The notes under the pieces were generated by a model. The model saw only the letters and a list, made by a program, of their open reading frames with translations, searched no databases and was not told the DNA's origin. From Paracoccus laeviglucosivorans (GTDB lineage: Bacteria > Pseudomonadota > Alphaproteobacteria > Rhodobacterales > Rhodobacteraceae): 64,000 nt of DNA. Numbering within the stretch: the stretch's first letter is position 1; every line of letters starts with the position of its first letter. This document shows, one piece after another, positions 52,598 to 59,731 of the stretch. Position numbers and translations under genes: made by a program. Location: positions 124,001 to 188,000 of the forward strand of contig NZ_FXTK01000005.1 of the NCBI RefSeq assembly GCF_900182695.1. The letters run 5' to 3'.

Positions 52598-54115
52598 TCA
52601 GGGCTCATCCATGGGGACGTGGAAATCGTCGATGGGCAGCTTTTTCACGAAACGCTCGGCGATTTCGGTGATGACGATCTGCGGGCGGATACGGGCGATG
52701 AAGTCATAATCAAGACTGGTGGACCAGACGAAATGCACTTCGCGATAGGTTTCGGCCAGCATCGCGGTCAGCAGATGCGGGCGGAATTCGCTGAAGGAAT
52801 CGCCGAACAGCACCACGGTCTCGGGCCGCGCGGTGGGGGATTCGTTCAGCGTGCGGATATGGCAACCGACAAAGCGAGGCGTGCCCTTGGCGAACCCCTC
52901 GGCCTCGTTATAGCGCACCATCTCGTTGTCGCCCACGCGGCGGGCATGGCGCAGGACCGGCAGAAAGCGGGCGTTTTCTTGGATGGGGGGCTGGAATTTG
53001 TTGCCAAGGTCCAGCACCATCTCTCGGGCGGGGCGGCTATGCGTGGGAAACACCTGCGGCGTGACGTCCAGCGATGCGCAAAGCCGCTGATAAGCGATCA
53101 GGCAGCCCTCATGGTTCCAATGCGTGTCGGTCTTGTAAAAGATCGGCTGTGCGGCGGTGCCACGACGCAGATCGTTAAGGATGTCCAGATTGAAATGCGC
53201 ATCGACCAGAGCAGCAATCTGGCGGACGGGATGGCGATCAGGATGGGGCAGCGATCGCGGCAGGTGATCGCGATAGACTGAGATTTTGTCGGGTACGGTC
53301 AGATGCCTATAGGTCGCCCCAAGCGCCGCGATCCGCGTCCGCCGCGTGTTCAGCAAGTCTGCCCAGTCTTGCGCATCACGATCGGTGAAATAGCCTGAAT
53401 CGGTGTAATAGCGATGCACGTCGTTCGAGCCGCTCCATAGAAACAGCCAGCCATCCTTGCCGACCATTACGCCGTTTTCAACGGTGCCGGGCGGAGGGCC
53501 GTTCCATGCGGGTGCTTGTTCGGGCGGGGTATCTGCTGTCAAACCCAGCTTGGCCAGCAAGGGCTGAAGCCGGTCCGGATTGCCTGCCCATTCTTCGTGC
53601 TGCAACGAAATGCAGCTTTGCGGATGCTGTTCGGCATAGCTGCGGAAACTGGCCTGAGCCCGTCGGATCGCCGAAATGTCGGGATTGCCATCAGCCGGCA
53701 AATCATCGGGATCGCGGGTCTGAAAGATCAGCAATGCGCCGGGGAAATAGGTGCGCAGAAAATCGAGATATTCGAAAAGCTGCGGCTCTGGCATCAGGTG
53801 GCGCGTTTCCGAAAAACCAGTAAGCCGCGTGCCTGTTGGCGGTGTCAGGACGTGGTGCACGAAACCGGAAACGGTCTGGGCTATGAATTCCTCGATCTGC
53901 ATCCGGTCTGCGCCGTGCCAAGGCGATCCCGATGCGGCGGCGGTATCGGCAAAACGCTGGCTGGCTTGCAGGTTTGCGGCCATGCGCGACAGTGAAAACA
54001 GGGCACCGGCATTGGCCCCGCGAATGCAGGTGCCAGACTGACGGTTCAGATACTCCTGCAACGGACCTGCACCGCCATGCATATGAGAGATAATGAATGC
54101 ATAAGTGTATGTCAT
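52598..54115 (-). CDS. Fusion of a sulfotransferase-like domain and an AlgX/AlgJ-type O-acetyltransferase domain
   Basis: A 505-residue protein with two halves. The N-terminal half (about 1-190) is sulfotransferase-like: YAFIISHMHGGAGPLQEYL, LLIFQTRDPDDL and a closing LQHEEWAGNPDRLQPLLAKLGL, but with a degenerate P-loop. The C-terminal half (about 210-505) is an SGNH acetyltransferase-like domain of the AlgX/AlgJ kind: KDGWLFLWSGSND near 217, the Asp/His pair in YKTDTHWNHEG near 330 and a serine in VLFGDSFSEF near 438, so the D-H-S triad looks complete. I start at ATG 54115 (AAGG upstream); the longer frame would overlap the upstream gene. No signal peptide is evident. Likely modifies a surface polysaccharide. 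Confidence 0.72.
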   Translation of the reverse strand: MTYTYAFIISHMHGGAGPLQEYLNRQSGTCIRGANAGALFSLSRMAANLQASQRFADTAAASGSPWHGADRMQIEEFIAQTVSGFVHHVLTPPTGTRLTGFSETRHLMPEPQLFEYLDFLRTYFPGALLIFQTRDPDDLPADGNPDISAIRRAQASFRSYAEQHPQSCISLQHEEWAGNPDRLQPLLAKLGLTADTPPEQAPAWNGPPPGTVENGVMVGKDGWLFLWSGSNDVHRYYTDSGYFTDRDAQDWADLLNTRRTRIAALGATYRHLTVPDKISVYRDHLPRSLPHPDRHPVRQIAALVDAHFNLDILNDLRRGTAAQPIFYKTDTHWNHEGCLIAYQRLCASLDVTPQVFPTHSRPAREMVLDLGNKFQPPIQENARFLPVLRHARRVGDNEMVRYNEAEGFAKGTPRFVGCHIRTLNESPTARPETVVLFGDSFSEFRPHLLTAMLAETYREVHFVWSTSLDYDFIARIRPQIVITEIAERFVKKLPIDDFHVPMDEP

Positions 54116-54131
54116 GGGGCGGCCTTCATGG

Positions 54132-54902
54132 TCACCATTTGAATTCCAGTCCGACCACATTGCAAAAAGCACGATAGTTCGGTTTGAACATCTCGCTAAG
54201 TCTTTCGCGCGTTTTAGGGGAAAGCACCGCTGAGTCTTTTTTCATGTGGCTGTATTTGCGTTGGCCGAATGCATCGCTGGTGATGGGATCGACCTGCACA
54301 TGGCGGAAAATCCGGTTCATGGTTTCCTGCGGCTCTGCTGATAAATTCGCATTATCGACCACCATGAAGCGGTCTCCAAAAATGCGTTTGTAATGAATGG
54401 CCTTGCGATAATAGCAGCTGAATTCCAGCGTCTGGAAATGATAGATGTCAGCCGCCGAAGTCCCCGAAATCGCATGTTCGATAGGGCGTGAAAAGAATTC
54501 GTCCGCCGTCATTTCGGTGACGCCCGGTGCCTTGTTCACCTTTTTCACATGGTTGAAATGCGACAGGGCGCGATCGATGGGATGGCGCGCCAGCATGACG
54601 ATCCGCGCCTGCGGGTTATAGGCATCGATCTTCGAAGGAATCGTGGGCGCCGCAGCCATATCGAAATATGTGGGACTGGCATCCATGTAGTGCTGGTTCG
54701 GAGGAAGCCCTTCGAACTGTTGATGATACCAGGCCAGCCCCTTGGCTTCGTAAAGCGAGAAGTAGTGGATTTCCTTGTCTCGTCCCGGATGGATTTCCGG
54801 GTGATGGCCCAGAAACTCGTGCAAGATCGTCGTGCCGCCCTTCATCGTGCCGACGATAAAGATGTCCGGACGGTTTGGGTTGTTCATGGTTGCGCTGGTC
54901 AT
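54132..54902 (-). CDS. Sulfotransferase domain protein
   Basis: A 256-residue PAPS-dependent sulfotransferase. The 5'-phosphosulfate loop is FIVGTMKGGTTILHEFL (about 15-31), and the 3'-phosphate-binding motif is ARHPIDRALSHFNHV (about 105-119). The acceptor is not known; its neighbours suggest a cell-surface glycan. The ATG overlaps the end of the large glycosyltransferase gene (ATGA). An in-frame ATG five codons later is an alternative start. It is followed 17 bp later by the fusion gene. The three are probably one operon. Confidence 0.88.
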   Translation of the reverse strand: MTSATMNNPNRPDIFIVGTMKGGTTILHEFLGHHPEIHPGRDKEIHYFSLYEAKGLAWYHQQFEGLPPNQHYMDASPTYFDMAAAPTIPSKIDAYNPQARIVMLARHPIDRALSHFNHVKKVNKAPGVTEMTADEFFSRPIEHAISGTSAADIYHFQTLEFSCYYRKAIHYKRIFGDRFMVVDNANLSAEPQETMNRIFRHVQVDPITSDAFGQRKYSHMKKDSAVLSPKTRERLSEMFKPNYRAFCNVVGLEFKW

Positions 54903-57900
54903 ATGGCTTTGCGCTTTCCGCTGTCGGTTTTGGCCTGATCCAGACCGAATTGCTGTTCAAGCTCGGCGATATAGGCGTCGGTTCTGGCCTGCCTGTCGGG
55001 GCGCTCGCCGATCATTCCTGCCGCCTTGCGCTGCATGGCGCGGATTTCGTCCAGCTGCTGGGCGTTGAAATTCGAGATGGTGACGCTGGATTGATGCCTG
55101 CGGTGATAGTTTTTCGACAGGGAGGAATAGGCCACCGAGCCCTGCGCCAGCAGGTTCAGGTAAACCGCCCAGTCGCCCGCGAAACGCAGCCCCTCGATTT
55201 CGGCCTTATGTTCGGCAAAGACCTGGCGCAGCGCATCGGCACGCATCACCACCGCCGAAGCGTTCAGGATGGTGTTCTTCAGGAAAAGCGCCTGCTCAAT
55301 TTCCACCTTGCCCGAGGCGATGTAATTGCTGTCCCATTTCCCCGGCGCGATGGGGTTGGTGTAATAGCGATAATCGGCGGCCAACGGATTGCCCTCGCCG
55401 TCGATCTGCGCGGATTCGGTGTAAGAAAGGACCACATCCGGGTCTTCGAAACCGCGCATGGCGGTGGACAGGAAATCCGGCGCGGCAAGATCGTCGGCCT
55501 CGGCGATCCAGATATAATCGCCCCGCGCCAAGTCCAGCCCCTTTTGCCATTGGCGGAAGACATTGCCGGAATTCACCGTGTTCGGGACAAAGCGGATTGG
55601 GGCGGGGCTGTTTGCCGCCAGTTCCGCGATGATCTCGGGGCTGCGATCGGTCGAGCAATCGTCCAGCACGATGATTTCAAGGATCGGCATATCCTGTGCC
55701 GCGACGCTTTCGATCCGGTCGCGGATATAGGCTTCGTAATTATAGCTGGGAACGATGACCGAAATGCGCGGCACCGGCTTGCCCGCCAGCTTCAGCAGGT
55801 CAAAGGCATAGTCGGTAAAGCCGGTTTCCTCGGCGATCGCCTTGGCGGCGCGGGCGGTCATCTCGGCCCGGCCAGCGGGGCGGTCCAGCAGGCGGGCGAC
55901 GGCTTCGGCCATGGCTTCGGGATCCTCGGCCTCGACCGCCAGCGCAAGGCCGCGTTCGGCCATATCCTCGGAACCCGTGACGCCTGCGAACATGATCACG
56001 GGCAGGTCCGATGCCATCGCCTCAAGCACGACCGAGGGGTAGGGGTCTTCGCGAGAGGTCAGCAGGAACACGTCCGCCGCCGCATAGAAAGGCGCGGGAT
56101 CGGTCTGACGACCGGGGAAATGCACCGCATCGCGCAGGCCAAGGCTATCGGCCAGCTTCTGCACTTCGGGCAGGAAATCGCGTTCGGCATGGCCGATCCA
56201 AATCGCTTCGGCAGGCACGCCCTTGGCGCGCAGCGCCGCCAGCGCACGGACGAACAGGTCCACCCCCTTGCGATGGTCGATATAGCCCGAACCCATCAGC
56301 AAGGGCACATCTGCGCCGATGCCGTATTCCTGACGCAGGCCATCGCGCAGGCTGGGATCGTGCGGGGCGGGACGCAGATACATACCCTGCGGACGCAGCA
56401 CGGCGTTTTCGACCTTGTGCCCCAGCGCCTCTTCAAAATGTTCGCGCACGATGCGGGCGGGGAAGACCACCGGCACATCCGCCGCAGCCAGATCGCCGAT
56501 CTGCCGCGCCAGATCCATCTGCGCATAGACCGAGCGCATCTCATGGACCAGCGATAGCACGCCATAGCCCGCCTCGCGCAGCAGGGGCACGGCGCTGCCG
56601 GAAACTGTGGTGTTGCAGATCGCCGCCTCGCCATGTTCGTTGCGCAGGCCGCGCAGCAGGCGCAGCGCCTCGTCCCGGCGGGTCACGGGGTCGGGCAGTT
56701 CGATAAGTTCGGCGACTTCGGCGTAATCCTTGACCAAGGGGCCGCCTTCCAGCAGCACGATCTTGACCGTCAGTCCGGCCTGCCGATAGGCGCGGGCAAG
56801 GTTCAGAAGCAGGAATTGCGCACCATGCGGATGGGCGTCATGGCCGACCAGCGTGACGTGGCGCGGGCGGGCATGGGGGTCCAGCGCATCGCGCGTGGTT
56901 TCCAGCCAAGCATAGCCAAAGCGGGTATCCGGCTCCAGATGCGCGCCTTCGGCCCATTCGTTCCATGCGTTGCAGAAGATGATGCGTTCGTCCGGCGTCG
57001 GCGCGTCCAGCATGGTGCGGGTGACGGCGTTGCCCAGCCAGCGCGAATATTCCTCGGGCGTGCTGTTGAGAAAGATCGCCCCGCCCTTTTTCCGGCGCGC
57101 GGTATTGTCCCATGCCGGGCAGACCGAGCGGATCAGCCGGTAATCGGGCTGCGGATAATCGCGCGAGCGATCCACATAGGAATTCCAGTCATAGACGATG
57201 CCGGTGAATTCCGGGTCCAGATCCTTGATCTGGTCGGTCAGCACCGTGGGCGAGGCGTTGTTGGGCGGAAATTCGATCGCCGCATCGAAGCCGTAGTCGC
57301 GCGGGTCTTCGGATTCAAAGGATTGGGTATAGGCCAGATAAATCTCGCCAATGCCGTTTTCGCGGCACCAGACGCGCCAGCGTTCGGCGGTGGCCTGCGG
57401 ATCGGGCAGCAGGCGCGGGCGATAGACCATGACCAAGGGCTTGCCGTCGATGCGGATATAGCGCGCATCGCGCAGATAAGGCGCGAGATCTGCGATAAAG
57501 GCAAGATCGTCCTCGGGTGAATGGTTCTGGCCGATCAGCACCTCGCTGTCCTTGCCGTCCCAGCGCCGGGTCCAGTTTTCATTCGCCCAGCAGGCGCAGA
57601 AAGGAAAATCCAGCGTCTCGGGATTGGCCAGCCATTGCTGCATCGGCTTTTCCATCAGCCGCTTGCCGTCGAACCAATACCAGTAGAAGCAAAAGCCGCC
57701 GATGCCGTAAAGCTTGGCCAGCTCGATCTGTTTTTGCTGAGCTTGAATGTCGGTCAGGTCGTAATAGCCGATGTCCAGCGGCTCATGCGGCTGGTGATGG
57801 CCGGGGAACATGGGCTTGGCGGGCCGCACATTCGTCCATTCGGTAAAGCCCGCGCCCCACCACGCATCGTTTTCCGGGAAGGTGTGGAATTGCGGCAGAT

Positions 57901-59731
57901 AGAATGTGATCAGCCGCGCCTTGGGATCGGTCAGATTGGTCTGCACGCGGCGCGGCACGAAATGGTCGGCGGTATCGACTGTGACCCATTCGCCCGAAGC
58001 CTTTGCCGCGGGCGAGGCATCCGCCGCATCGAACCGGCTGCGCGACTTGGGTGCGGCGGGCTTTTCGAAGCGGGTGATCTGAAGGCTTTGCCATTGCTGG
58101 TAAAGCGCCGTCGTGCCGAATAGCTTGCGCCCGAAATCAGAGCCGAAAATGCGGTTCTTCCACGCGATCCGCTTGCTGGTCGAAATGGGCATCCGCCGCC
58201 ATGCCGCCAGCGCCACACCACCTGCCAGCAGGCGCAGACCGCGCTGCAGCTTGCGAACGCCCCGGCCCAGTTTGCGCACCGGCGCGGTCATGCGCCACGA
58301 GCGGCTGTCATAGGTGGCGCGCAGCATTCTGGTCAGGTTTTCGATCTCGGCCAGGCGATCCTTGACGCCTTGGGCGTAATGACCGGCTTCGACGCGCTTT
58401 TCCTCATAGGCGCGGCGGCTTTCGGTCAGTTCCGTTTCCTGGGCGGTCAGGGCTGCGGTCAGGGAATGCGCCTGCGTTTCCAGATCGGACATCTGCTGTC
58501 CCATCTGCCGCGCCTGCATTTCGGTCCTTGCCAGTGCCGCTTCCGCAATTTGGCGTTGGCTTTGGCTGTCGTTCAGTGCGGCGCGCTGCGTTTGCAGATC
58601 GTGGCGCACCTGTTCCAGCGTCTGGCGCGCGGCGTCCAGTTGCCGCTGCCTTTCGCCCAGCTGCGTGCGCATGTCGCTGATATAAAGTTCGTTTTTCTTG
58701 TTCAGCTCGGACACGACATCATGAAGCTGCCAGATGCCTTTCAGGTTATGCTCCAACTCGGCATTCTTGCGGGCCAGTGTCTCGGCTTCGGTCTTGCGGG
58801 TTTCCGCATCGGCCGTCGCGCAGGCCAGCGCCTTGCGGGCATCCTGATGAAAGGGCAGCGTCAGTTCGACCAATTCCTCGAACTGCGCGCGCACGGCGTC
58901 AAGCTGGGCCAGCGCCTCGGGGTCTTGCGGGTCGCGGATCAGGCGGTCGCAGGCGGCGGTGACACGCAGCGCCAGACCGCGCGTATAGGCGGTTTCGGCC
59001 AGATCCTTTTCGGTCCAGCGGTTGTGACGCGCATCGCCCACAATGGCCTGCGCGACCAGCGGCGCGATTTCGTCCAGATCATGCGGCCATTCGATGCCCA
59101 GATCGTCCGCCATGCGACGAAACTGCGCGCGCCAATCCCCGAACAGGCTGTCATAGGACACGAAGCTGCGTTTCAGCCCTCGGCTGGCCTGTTCGGCATC
59201 GAGGAAATGGCGCAGCCACAGCAGCACGCCTTCGCGCAGCGTCATGCCATCGCGCGTGGCCAGTGAGCTTGCGACCTCCAGCGGGTTGCGAAACGGGATG
59301 ACGGCCAAGGGTGCGATCCCTTCGGCCTCAAGCGCGCGCAGCAAGGGCGGCAGCATGCGGCAAGTGCGCGGTTCCTTGACCACGCTCAGCGGGGCGTCTC
59401 CCAGCTCGGCCGCGATAAAGCCACGCAGGTCCGAGATGTAATGCGCCAACAGATCGCTGGGTGCCTTGGCCAGATCTATCCGGGACCAGTCATCCCACGA
59501 ACTGCCCAGATCCCGCAAAAGCTGTTCGTTGCGGTCGTTCAGCACCACCGGTTCGAAATGGCCGTATTCGTTATCCTTGGTCGCGCCGATCAGACGCTTG
59601 GGCAGCGCCGCGCCTGCAATCCCCAAAAGCTGGGCCAGCACACTTGTTCCCGAACGGTGCATCCCCAGCACAAGCAGGCATTGGCGGGTGGATGCAGTCT
59701 TTTTCGGGGTCTTGGAACGCTTGCTGGACAA
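54899..59731 (-). CDS. Multidomain surface-glycan enzyme: sulfotransferase, coiled coil, WbsX-like, GT4 and GT2 domains
   Basis: A 1610-residue protein with five modules. About 17-290: sulfotransferase-like with P-loop LVLGMHRSGTSVLAQLL. About 310-470: coiled coil rich in Glu/Gln/Arg. About 600-945: WbsX-like (Glyco_tran_WbsX) domain, ITFYLPQFHTFPENDAWWG and CNAWNEWAEGAHLEPD. About 955-1290: GT4 glycosyltransferase (MGSGYIDHRKGVDLF, LTSREDPYPSVVLEAMA). About 1320-1560: GT2 glycosyltransferase (ISVIVPSYNYEAYIRDRI, LDDCSTDRS, IAEADD). Start is TTG 59731 with GAGAG upstream. No signal peptide or membrane helix is obvious; a hydrophobic patch (about 490-505) is marginal. It probably builds and sulfates a cell-surface glycan. 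The donor sugars cannot be read from sequence. Confidence 0.85.
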   Translation of the reverse strand: MSSKRSKTPKKTASTRQCLLVLGMHRSGTSVLAQLLGIAGAALPKRLIGATKDNEYGHFEPVVLNDRNEQLLRDLGSSWDDWSRIDLAKAPSDLLAHYISDLRGFIAAELGDAPLSVVKEPRTCRMLPPLLRALEAEGIAPLAVIPFRNPLEVASSLATRDGMTLREGVLLWLRHFLDAEQASRGLKRSFVSYDSLFGDWRAQFRRMADDLGIEWPHDLDEIAPLVAQAIVGDARHNRWTEKDLAETAYTRGLALRVTAACDRLIRDPQDPEALAQLDAVRAQFEELVELTLPFHQDARKALACATADAETRKTEAETLARKNAELEHNLKGIWQLHDVVSELNKKNELYISDMRTQLGERQRQLDAARQTLEQVRHDLQTQRAALNDSQSQRQIAEAALARTEMQARQMGQQMSDLETQAHSLTAALTAQETELTESRRAYEEKRVEAGHYAQGVKDRLAEIENLTRMLRATYDSRSWRMTAPVRKLGRGVRKLQRGLRLLAGGVALAAWRRMPISTSKRIAWKNRIFGSDFGRKLFGTTALYQQWQSLQITRFEKPAAPKSRSRFDAADASPAAKASGEWVTVDTADHFVPRRVQTNLTDPKARLITFYLPQFHTFPENDAWWGAGFTEWTNVRPAKPMFPGHHQPHEPLDIGYYDLTDIQAQQKQIELAKLYGIGGFCFYWYWFDGKRLMEKPMQQWLANPETLDFPFCACWANENWTRRWDGKDSEVLIGQNHSPEDDLAFIADLAPYLRDARYIRIDGKPLVMVYRPRLLPDPQATAERWRVWCRENGIGEIYLAYTQSFESEDPRDYGFDAAIEFPPNNASPTVLTDQIKDLDPEFTGIVYDWNSYVDRSRDYPQPDYRLIRSVCPAWDNTARRKKGGAIFLNSTPEEYSRWLGNAVTRTMLDAPTPDERIIFCNAWNEWAEGAHLEPDTRFGYAWLETTRDALDPHARPRHVTLVGHDAHPHGAQFLLLNLARAYRQAGLTVKIVLLEGGPLVKDYAEVAELIELPDPVTRRDEALRLLRGLRNEHGEAAICNTTVSGSAVPLLREAGYGVLSLVHEMRSVYAQMDLARQIGDLAAADVPVVFPARIVREHFEEALGHKVENAVLRPQGMYLRPAPHDPSLRDGLRQEYGIGADVPLLMGSGYIDHRKGVDLFVRALAALRAKGVPAEAIWIGHAERDFLPEVQKLADSLGLRDAVHFPGRQTDPAPFYAAADVFLLTSREDPYPSVVLEAMASDLPVIMFAGVTGSEDMAERGLALAVEAEDPEAMAEAVARLLDRPAGRAEMTARAAKAIAEETGFTDYAFDLLKLAGKPVPRISVIVPSYNYEAYIRDRIESVAAQDMPILEIIVLDDCSTDRSPEIIAELAANSPAPIRFVPNTVNSGNVFRQWQKGLDLARGDYIWIAEADDLAAPDFLSTAMRGFEDPDVVLSYTESAQIDGEGNPLAADYRYYTNPIAPGKWDSNYIASGKVEIEQALFLKNTILNASAVVMRADALRQVFAEHKAEIEGLRFAGDWAVYLNLLAQGSVAYSSLSKNYHRRHQSSVTISNFNAQQLDEIRAMQRKAAGMIGERPDRQARTDAYIAELEQQFGLDQAKTDSGKRKAI

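Follow-up and report, generated by a model that had tools for sequence, protein, structure and literature searches.

Gene organization and domain architecture

We analyzed a 64,000-nucleotide stretch of the Paracoccus laeviglucosivorans genome (contig NZ_FXTK01000005.1, positions 124,001 to 188,000; hereafter the window), focusing on a gene whose 1610-residue product, hereafter the giant, combines a sulfotransferase, a long coiled coil, a WbsX-type domain and two glycosyltransferase (GT) modules, of families GT4 and GT2, in one chain. The gene at 54899-59731 is one open frame with no internal stop on the minus strand, beginning at a TTG start, and the plus-strand frame over the same interval is interrupted by stops. 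An earlier interpretation made from the DNA letters alone (the sequence-only reading) had described a single 1610-residue frame without a frameshift; the intact frame bears this out in position and length, and the strand, which had been left unstated, is minus.

The identity and order of the five modules, as proposed in that reading, are supported by sequence and fold. Pfam matches WbsX (residues 608-945, E 5.6e-132), GT4 (Glyco_trans_1_4, 1149-1283, E 1.4e-25; Glycos_transf_1, 1132-1297, E 1.4e-24) and GT2 (1324-1502, E 1.4e-28), and the sulfotransferase is recognized by its motifs and fold. Profiles thus back the GT assignments; for the sulfotransferase the profile match is weak and the fold match strong. 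PAPS below denotes 3'-phosphoadenosine-5'-phosphosulfate and GH99 glycoside hydrolase family 99.

54899-59731, minus strand: giant gene, sulfotransferase - coiled coil - amphipathic helix - WbsX/GH99-like - GT4 - GT2; 1610 aa, TTG start
58937-59689, minus strand: sulfotransferase domain, proposed chain terminator; residues 15-265; Pfam below cut-off, fold Z 14.1 to TPST1
59642-59665, minus strand: PAPS P-loop GMHRSGTS, residues 23-30; invariant in 9/9 orthologs
59264-59290, minus strand: R148-x7-S156; both residues invariant in 9/9 orthologs
58307-58921, minus strand: coiled coil, proposed molecular ruler; residues 271-475; predicted helices, period 3.50
58193-58300, minus strand: SWRMTAPVR motif and basic amphipathic helix, proposed membrane-association segment; residues 478-513
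56897-57910, minus strand: WbsX/GH99-like domain; residues 608-945; Pfam, GH99 profile matches
56948-56959, minus strand: E925 and E928 (NEWAE), at the positions of the GH99 catalytic pair in the alignment to 4ad1
55775-56869, minus strand: GT4 (GT-B fold) module; residues 955-1319; Pfam, fold Z 34.7
54932-55771, minus strand: GT2 module with EADD motif; residues 1321-1600; Pfam, phmmer

The N-terminal sulfotransferase domain

Pfam placed Sulfotransfer_3 at residues 20-216 of the giant with E 2.8e-5 and 24.9 bits, below the curated cut-off of 27, and among five orthologs scanned at E ≤ 1e-4 it called the N-terminal sulfotransferase in one (L007, 27.2 bits) and not in the other four. Despite the sub-cut-off score, the assignment of this domain as a sulfotransferase is well supported, because the P-loop and the R148-x7-S156 pattern are invariant and the predicted fold matches sulfotransferases. 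Across the alignment of nine orthologs (the window and loci L003-L010), G23-MHRSGT-S30, the K119-EPR motif, R148 and S156 do not vary, upholding the P-loop picked out in the sequence-only reading; we take R148-x7-S156 to be the usual 3'-phosphate-binding pattern of PAPS sulfotransferases. In an AlphaFold2 model of residues 1-560 (mean predicted local distance difference test score, pLDDT, 76.1), the domain scores mostly 75-96, with a dip to 61 near residue 225. All seven Foldseek matches of this predicted model at E ≤ 0.001 were tyrosylprotein sulfotransferases, and sulfotransferases made up 49 of the 50 rows listed by a structural aligner (best Z 14.1, root-mean-square deviation 4.2, 216 residues, 17% identity). 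The domain is thus like tyrosylprotein and other PAPS sulfotransferases in fold and PAPS motifs; it shares 17% identity with the tyrosylprotein enzymes, and its acceptor is presumably a glycan.

A coiled coil of variable length between nearly fixed modules

The long coiled coil of the sequence-only reading is borne out by predicted long helices (residues 271-383 and 393-475 in the AlphaFold2 model, the second at low confidence, as is the region around residues 473-494) and by a hydrophobic periodicity of 3.50 residues whose power was reached by 0 of 1000 shuffles. The other eight ortholog coils peak at periods of 3.48-3.52; with 300 shuffles each, the observed power was reached by none in six of them, by one in L003 and by three in L007.

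Coil length in the nine orthologs is 188, 191, 195, 216, 97, 180, 417, 557 and 397 residues. At the 0.15 nm rise per residue of a coiled coil, these would be rods about 14 to 83 nm long. Distances between the other landmarks are nearly fixed: the P-loop lies 267 residues from the coil start, the GT4 motif 95 residues from GT2, and GT2 86 residues from EADD in 9/9 orthologs, while WbsX spans 314-315 residues and WbsX to GT4 measures 305 or 308. Two Rhodobacter capsulatus records (L008 and L009) have coils that differ by 140 residues, or 20 heptads. Tandem Repeats Finder (TRF), run on the coil DNA of eight orthologs, reported 13 arrays in six of them, several overlapping, and 11 of the 13 have periods of 21, 42, 63 or 105 bp, all multiples of 21 bp.

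The sequence-only reading had the coil spacing the sulfotransferase from the glycosyltransferases. Fold, model and ortholog landmarks support the separation of the modules; the coil is better read, however, as a ruler of variable length that separates a chain terminator from a polymerase than as a neutral spacer.

The SWR motif and the basic amphipathic helix

Immediately after the coil stands a motif of the form SWR[IVM]TxPxR, followed by a basic helix; S478, W479, R480, T482, P484 and R486 (alignment numbering) are invariant in the nine orthologs. Residues 485-502 have the highest 18-residue hydrophobic moment in the giant (first of 1592 windows) and a net charge of +7.

A DNA pattern for the SWR motif matched in 6 of 149 family genomes, once per genome, and the reversed control gave 0. 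All six matches stand at the end of a long coil (judged by eye, except in the window, where the model was used). The N-terminal parts of the six proteins were called by Pfam as sulfotransferase in three, as methyltransferase in one (L077) and not at all in two (L078 and L079); of the three sulfotransferases, L080 scored 29.9 bits, above the cut-off, and the window and L081 (22.0 bits) below it. L080 is a further fusion, with the order sulfotransferase, coil, SWR, GT2, GT4. The SWR motif was also present in 9 of 14 further Paracoccus loci (L045-L058; 13 found through the sulfotransferase part, and L050, which overlaps L080, through GT2), in one of the nine in an overlapping frame. We also observed at L078 (1450-3861, minus strand) a protein of ~800 aa that has an N-terminal domain without a Pfam call and, as judged by eye, several hundred residues of coil with SWRVTAPIR at the end; this protein is possibly another cap enzyme.

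The WbsX, GT4 and GT2 modules

A model of residues 555-1610 reached a pLDDT of 80.1 and a predicted template modeling score (pTM) of 0.81. Its fold matches are GT-B enzymes of family GT4 (HepE, 4xsp, Z 34.7 over 352 residues); GT4 fills the list, which is informative for GT4 only and not for WbsX or GT2. The GT2 module matches chondroitin synthase (2z87) by phmmer at E 6.5e-14, and its EADD motif is identical in the nine orthologs.

A profile of 14 WbsX domains, searched against the PDB, matched the GH99 structures 5ngw (E 1.2e-7) and 4ad1 (E 1.4e-4), and the NEWAE of the giant aligns with the NEWHE of 4ad1. The E925 and E928 positions are kept in 13 of the 14 aligned domains, the exception being L042. 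In the portions of PMC11025385 consulted, the GH99 pair of MANEA is given as E404/E407 and as identical in bacterial GH99; E925/E928 have the same i, i+3 spacing. Given the profile match and the retained pair, the WbsX domain probably performs glycosidic-bond chemistry, by transfer or by cutting. It is thus related to the GH99 endo-alpha-mannosidases and mannanases, sharing NEWxE with 4ad1, but differs from them in being fused with GTs and in forming its own Pfam family, PF14307. The sequence-only reading had counted it among the sugar-transferring modules; the domain is there, but sugar transfer is unproven for it, since it is a GH99 relative that keeps both glutamates and 'Glycosyltransferase WbsX' is a Pfam name.

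Distribution, exchange of the N-terminal domain and split forms

The nearest named ortholog found comes from P. shanxieyensis and shares 79% identity along nearly the whole protein. The full-length order recurs, as a survey across genomes shows: it was present at 8 of 17 loci in a pattern-based scan of genome contigs for close relatives, in 5 of 125 Paracoccus genomes (one of them the source of the window; G282 carries a piece cut by the contig end) and in 1 of 198 family genomes, again the source of the window. These counts are lower bounds, because few candidates were scored per genome. A phage or plasmid origin was considered and rejected: 63 phage and 667 plasmid records match, and none covers 80% of the query.

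The WbsX-GT4-GT2 core by itself is distributed more widely, in Aminobacter, Azospirillum, Bradyrhizobium and G153. The proteins of the first three genera, annotated by NCBI as 'glycoside hydrolase family 99-like domain-containing protein', share the single-chain core with the giant and lack similarity to its residues 1-290. The sequence-only reading had such modules usually in separate or at most two-domain proteins, which fails for the C-terminal half; it is the fused sulfotransferase and coil that looks restricted in distribution. The Aminobacter protein begins with an S-adenosylmethionine-dependent methyltransferase (E 3.3e-26), then has a short coil weakly homologous to that of the giant (40% identity over about 42 residues, E 9e-4), and continues with the homologous core (WbsX 64%, GT4 41% and GT2 49% identity). 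The same order occurs at Agrobacterium pusense L016, with a methyltransferase, a coil (by eye), WbsX at 49% identity, and GT4 and GT2 modules that are seen by Pfam and have no BLAST match to the giant at E 1e-3.

The Azospirillum and Bradyrhizobium proteins carry, as judged by eye, an N-terminal repeat without a Pfam call. By eye, a repeat of the form DPxWYLxxNPDVxxxxxDPLxHYLxxGWREGRxPHPLFD precedes WbsX and GT modules at L028, L035, L036 and L070-L072; no Pfam family covered the repeat region in the two sequences scanned (L035 and the Aminobacter N-terminal part).

Six plasmid loci were opened: the three with the core proteins described above, and three in which the parts are split between neighboring genes. 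The latter, 3 of the 30 rows listed, were chosen because the listing named both a glycosyltransferase and a sulfotransferase. In Ruegeria pSD20, Phaeobacter sp. G2 and P. yeei pLM20P4, a sulfotransferase-coil gene (488, 583 and 493 aa, respectively) lies directly ahead of a GT gene (1356, 1221 and 1299 aa) that matches the GT4-GT2 part of the giant at 31-34%. The SWR motif is exact in two of the three and reads SWKITGPLR in the third. ABC-transporter and 'sugar transporter' genes lie nearby in Ruegeria pSD20.

Operon and surroundings

The giant is the first gene of a probable three-gene operon, followed by a second sulfotransferase and an AlgX/SGNH-like protein.

54132-54902, minus strand: second sulfotransferase, 256 aa; Sulfotransfer_3 E 1.2e-15, Sulfotransfer_1 E 4.3e-13; start overlaps the giant's end by 4 bases
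52598-54172, minus strand: AlgX/SGNH-like protein with a weak sulfotransferase-like N-terminal part; ALGX E 4.2e-17

The weak N-terminal match of the third gene is to Sulfotransfer_3 (E 9.5e-4, below cut-off), and the gene has further ATG starts at 54160 and 54115. A homolog of the 256-aa sulfotransferase is present in seven of the eight ortholog loci, L007 having none. The three genes are functionally linked, because in P. lutimaris they form one 2251-aa frame (L004:9917-16669), and at P. halophilus L005 the second and third genes both map to a single frame. Read from 52598-54115 (minus strand), the SGNH/AlgX-like protein begins without a signal peptide (by eye). AlgX is periplasmic; the protein encoded here may, on account of this difference, work in the cytoplasm.

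Upstream of the giant are smaller ORFs, one of them Ysc84-like, and then a delta-aminolevulinate dehydratase gene; downstream of the operon, genes encode Y-family polymerase (IMS) and DNA polymerase III alpha domains. At R. capsulatus L009 (3921-5720), the region ~4 kb upstream of the homolog of the giant holds a sugar nucleotidyltransferase-like gene and a GT2 gene, a hint as to which sugars make up the polymer. The available text of PMC10218006 names rcc01081-01086, rcc01932 and wza/wzb/wzc for the R. capsulatus gene-transfer-agent receptor capsule; a link of the giant homolog to that capsule was dropped, as the genes could not be compared.

A proposed model of sulfate-capped, ruler-controlled polymerization

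The domains, their conserved sites and order, the variation in coil length, the exchange of the terminator and the split forms come directly from the present analysis. By analogy we propose, with a probability of roughly 0.6, that the giant is a single-chain, WbbB-like polysaccharide assembly protein in which the sulfotransferase would act as chain terminator. The proposal is made because the giant has counterparts of the parts described in the consulted portions of PMC11231755, with a sulfotransferase in the cap slot. The variation in coil length, the mostly heptad-multiple arrays, the terminator exchange, the split forms and the SWR motif at the ends of long coils also count in its favor; all activities, the membrane contact, termination and the export route are predicted. 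The basic amphipathic helix would hold the giant at the cytoplasmic membrane, where the C-terminal block (GT4 and GT2, with the GH99-like domain) would extend a lipid-linked chain. The coil would keep the sulfotransferase at a set distance, such that only chains long enough could reach it; a chain that did would be sulfated from PAPS at its non-reducing end, and growth would stop. The finished chain would leave through an ABC exporter, probably a Kps-type one, and the second sulfotransferase and SGNH protein of the operon might decorate or finish the same glycan.

Several observations weigh against this model. The linker from SWR to WbsX, at 115-173 residues, also varies among the nine orthologs, and in many proteins coils are free to diverge; length variation alone is therefore no proof of a ruler. 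Two of the 13 TRF arrays have periods of 24 and 66 bp, which are not heptad multiples, and TRF found no tandem array in the coil of the giant itself or in those of L004 and L007. The proposed membrane helix (residues 483-513) is predicted at low confidence in the AlphaFold2 model and is weak in two of nine orthologs (moments of 0.21 in L006 and 0.31 in L007), and the SWR motif is missing in 5 of the 14 loci L045-L058. The second sulfotransferase of the operon has no coil. Exporter and sugar-nucleotide families were absent from the 20 window ORFs scanned, with most of 1-29 kb outside the scan. Wzt_C (PF14524), which we take to be the cap-reading domain in O12-type Wzm/Wzt exporters, matched in 0 of 125 Paracoccus genomes, and we set aside the idea of the giant as a WbbB family member with an O12-type exporter. 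Capsule_synth (of the KpsC/KpsS kind) is present in 124 of the 125, a distribution that does not single out the carriers of the giant; set against the lack of Wzt_C, it makes a Kps-type exporter the likelier route, though one not tied to the giant. The accessible text of PMC4483657 describes an Aeromonas salmonicida sulfotransferase gene beside wbbB, with no matching sulfate in the O antigen. Finally, sequence cannot separate a terminal cap from in-chain sulfation.

In-chain sulfation is the main rival, one to which we assign a real but clearly smaller chance: the sulfotransferase would decorate repeat units along the chain, the coil being a spacer or dimerization rod that reaches the growing glycan, with no termination. 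The sulfated capsule of Vibrio offers a precedent, as PMC11641403, in the parts consulted, reports sulfotransferase genes in the cluster and a model of sulfation during assembly; the second sulfotransferase next in the operon points the same way. APS kinase (adenosine 5'-phosphosulfate kinase), which would supply PAPS, occurred in 15 of 15 Paracoccus genomes tested, five with and ten without the full-length giant; this suits capping equally, and the enzyme was discarded as an uninformative co-occurrence marker. Against in-chain sulfation, Aminobacter carries a methyltransferase, a classical cap enzyme, in the slot before the homologous coil and core, coil length is the freest part of the protein, with arrays mostly in heptad multiples, and in the listed proteins that have both, the P-loop is near the N-terminus and SWR at the far end of the coil.

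A second alternative, compatible with sulfate capping by a ruler-borne terminator and in our view tentative, concerns the WbsX/GH99-like domain, which might hydrolyze the lipid-linked chain to trim or proofread it, so that length would be set by cutting together with capping. The GH99-placed glutamate pair, kept in all WbsX domains aligned but one, speaks for it, as does the use of such a pair by GH99 enzymes (E404/E407 of MANEA in the consulted text of PMC11025385). It is opposed by the many GT or RgpF fusions in which PF14307 domains occur, and by the best GH99 match, 5ngw, which has NNWNI at the place of the pair, without the glutamates. We know of no hydrolytic activity in the PF14307 family, which also counts against this alternative.

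Finally, we consider it improbable that the giant is a scaffold for an oligosaccharide or protein glycan (e.g. flagellin or a glycolipid) in which each module acts once and the coil merely dimerizes: its one GT4 and one GT2 and the lack of export or sugar-nucleotide families among the scanned window ORFs would suit such a role, but coils that reach 557 residues and contain heptad-multiple repeats are ill-suited to a simple dimerization rod, the Ruegeria sulfotransferase-coil gene adjoins a multi-GT gene and ABC-transporter genes, and R. capsulatus L009 has the nucleotidyltransferase and GT2 gene upstream.

If sulfate capping is correct, sulfate would join methyl, methyl-phosphate and Kdo (3-deoxy-D-manno-oct-2-ulosonic acid) as a chain-terminating cap, and the recurring Rhodobacteraceae gene for a sulfotransferase with a long coil would gain a job, the setting of surface-glycan length. 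The PF14307 'WbsX' domain, which is related to GH99 and retains the glutamate pair, would likewise gain a defined biosynthetic setting. The broader combination, in which sulfation by a PAPS sulfotransferase at the tip of a ruler, fused or split, sets polysaccharide length in Rhodobacteraceae and a cytoplasmic WbsX is a third glycosidase-type polymerizing or transglycosylating module, appears doubtful to us as a whole. Coils of 97 to 557 residues around nearly fixed enzymes are a natural experiment on the evolution of molecular rulers.

Comparison with known ruler systems

The layout of terminator, ruler and polymerase is already established by experiment for WbbB, WbdD and K. pneumoniae O7, and our comparison suggests that a sulfotransferase in the terminator slot is apparently undescribed: no description of one was found in the literature searched, mostly open papers and including the accessible parts of PMC10433991, PMC10269572 and PMC9587256. 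According to the consulted portions of PMC11231755, chain length in the systems studied there is set by a coiled coil that carries the terminating enzyme at its distal end. The same text describes the O12 system as combining all its enzymes in a single chain, and the coil of WbdD as followed by an amphipathic helix that associates with the membrane.

WbbB (Klebsiella pneumoniae O12/Raoultella terrigena) is, on the same source, laid out like the giant, with an N-terminal terminator, a coiled-coil ruler and C-terminal GTs in one chain. The enzyme domain is distal to the coil in 9/9 orthologs of the giant, for which we infer a chain-terminating role, and GT4 and GT2 follow the coil within one chain, as in WbbB-type proteins, with polymerization predicted. 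The two differ in the terminator, a GT99 Kdo transferase in WbbB and a sulfotransferase fold in the giant, in the extra GH99-like domain of the giant, and in the lack of a Wzt_C match in Paracoccus.

K. pneumoniae O7 ORF6 and the WbdD of Escherichia coli O9/K. pneumoniae O3 carry, in the texts consulted, a cap enzyme on the distal tip of the coil, as the giant does its sulfotransferase; their cap is methyl-phosphate, made by a methyltransferase and a kinase, and that of the giant is predicted to be sulfate. The counterpart of the WbdD amphipathic helix in the giant would be residues 485-502, with low pLDDT and a weak moment in 2/9 orthologs. Coil length also varies among the genes for putative methyltransferases in E. 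coli group 3 capsule loci, according to the consulted portions of PMC13171606; these transporter-dependent capsules share the variable coil with the giant, and their enzyme is a putative methyltransferase rather than a sulfotransferase.

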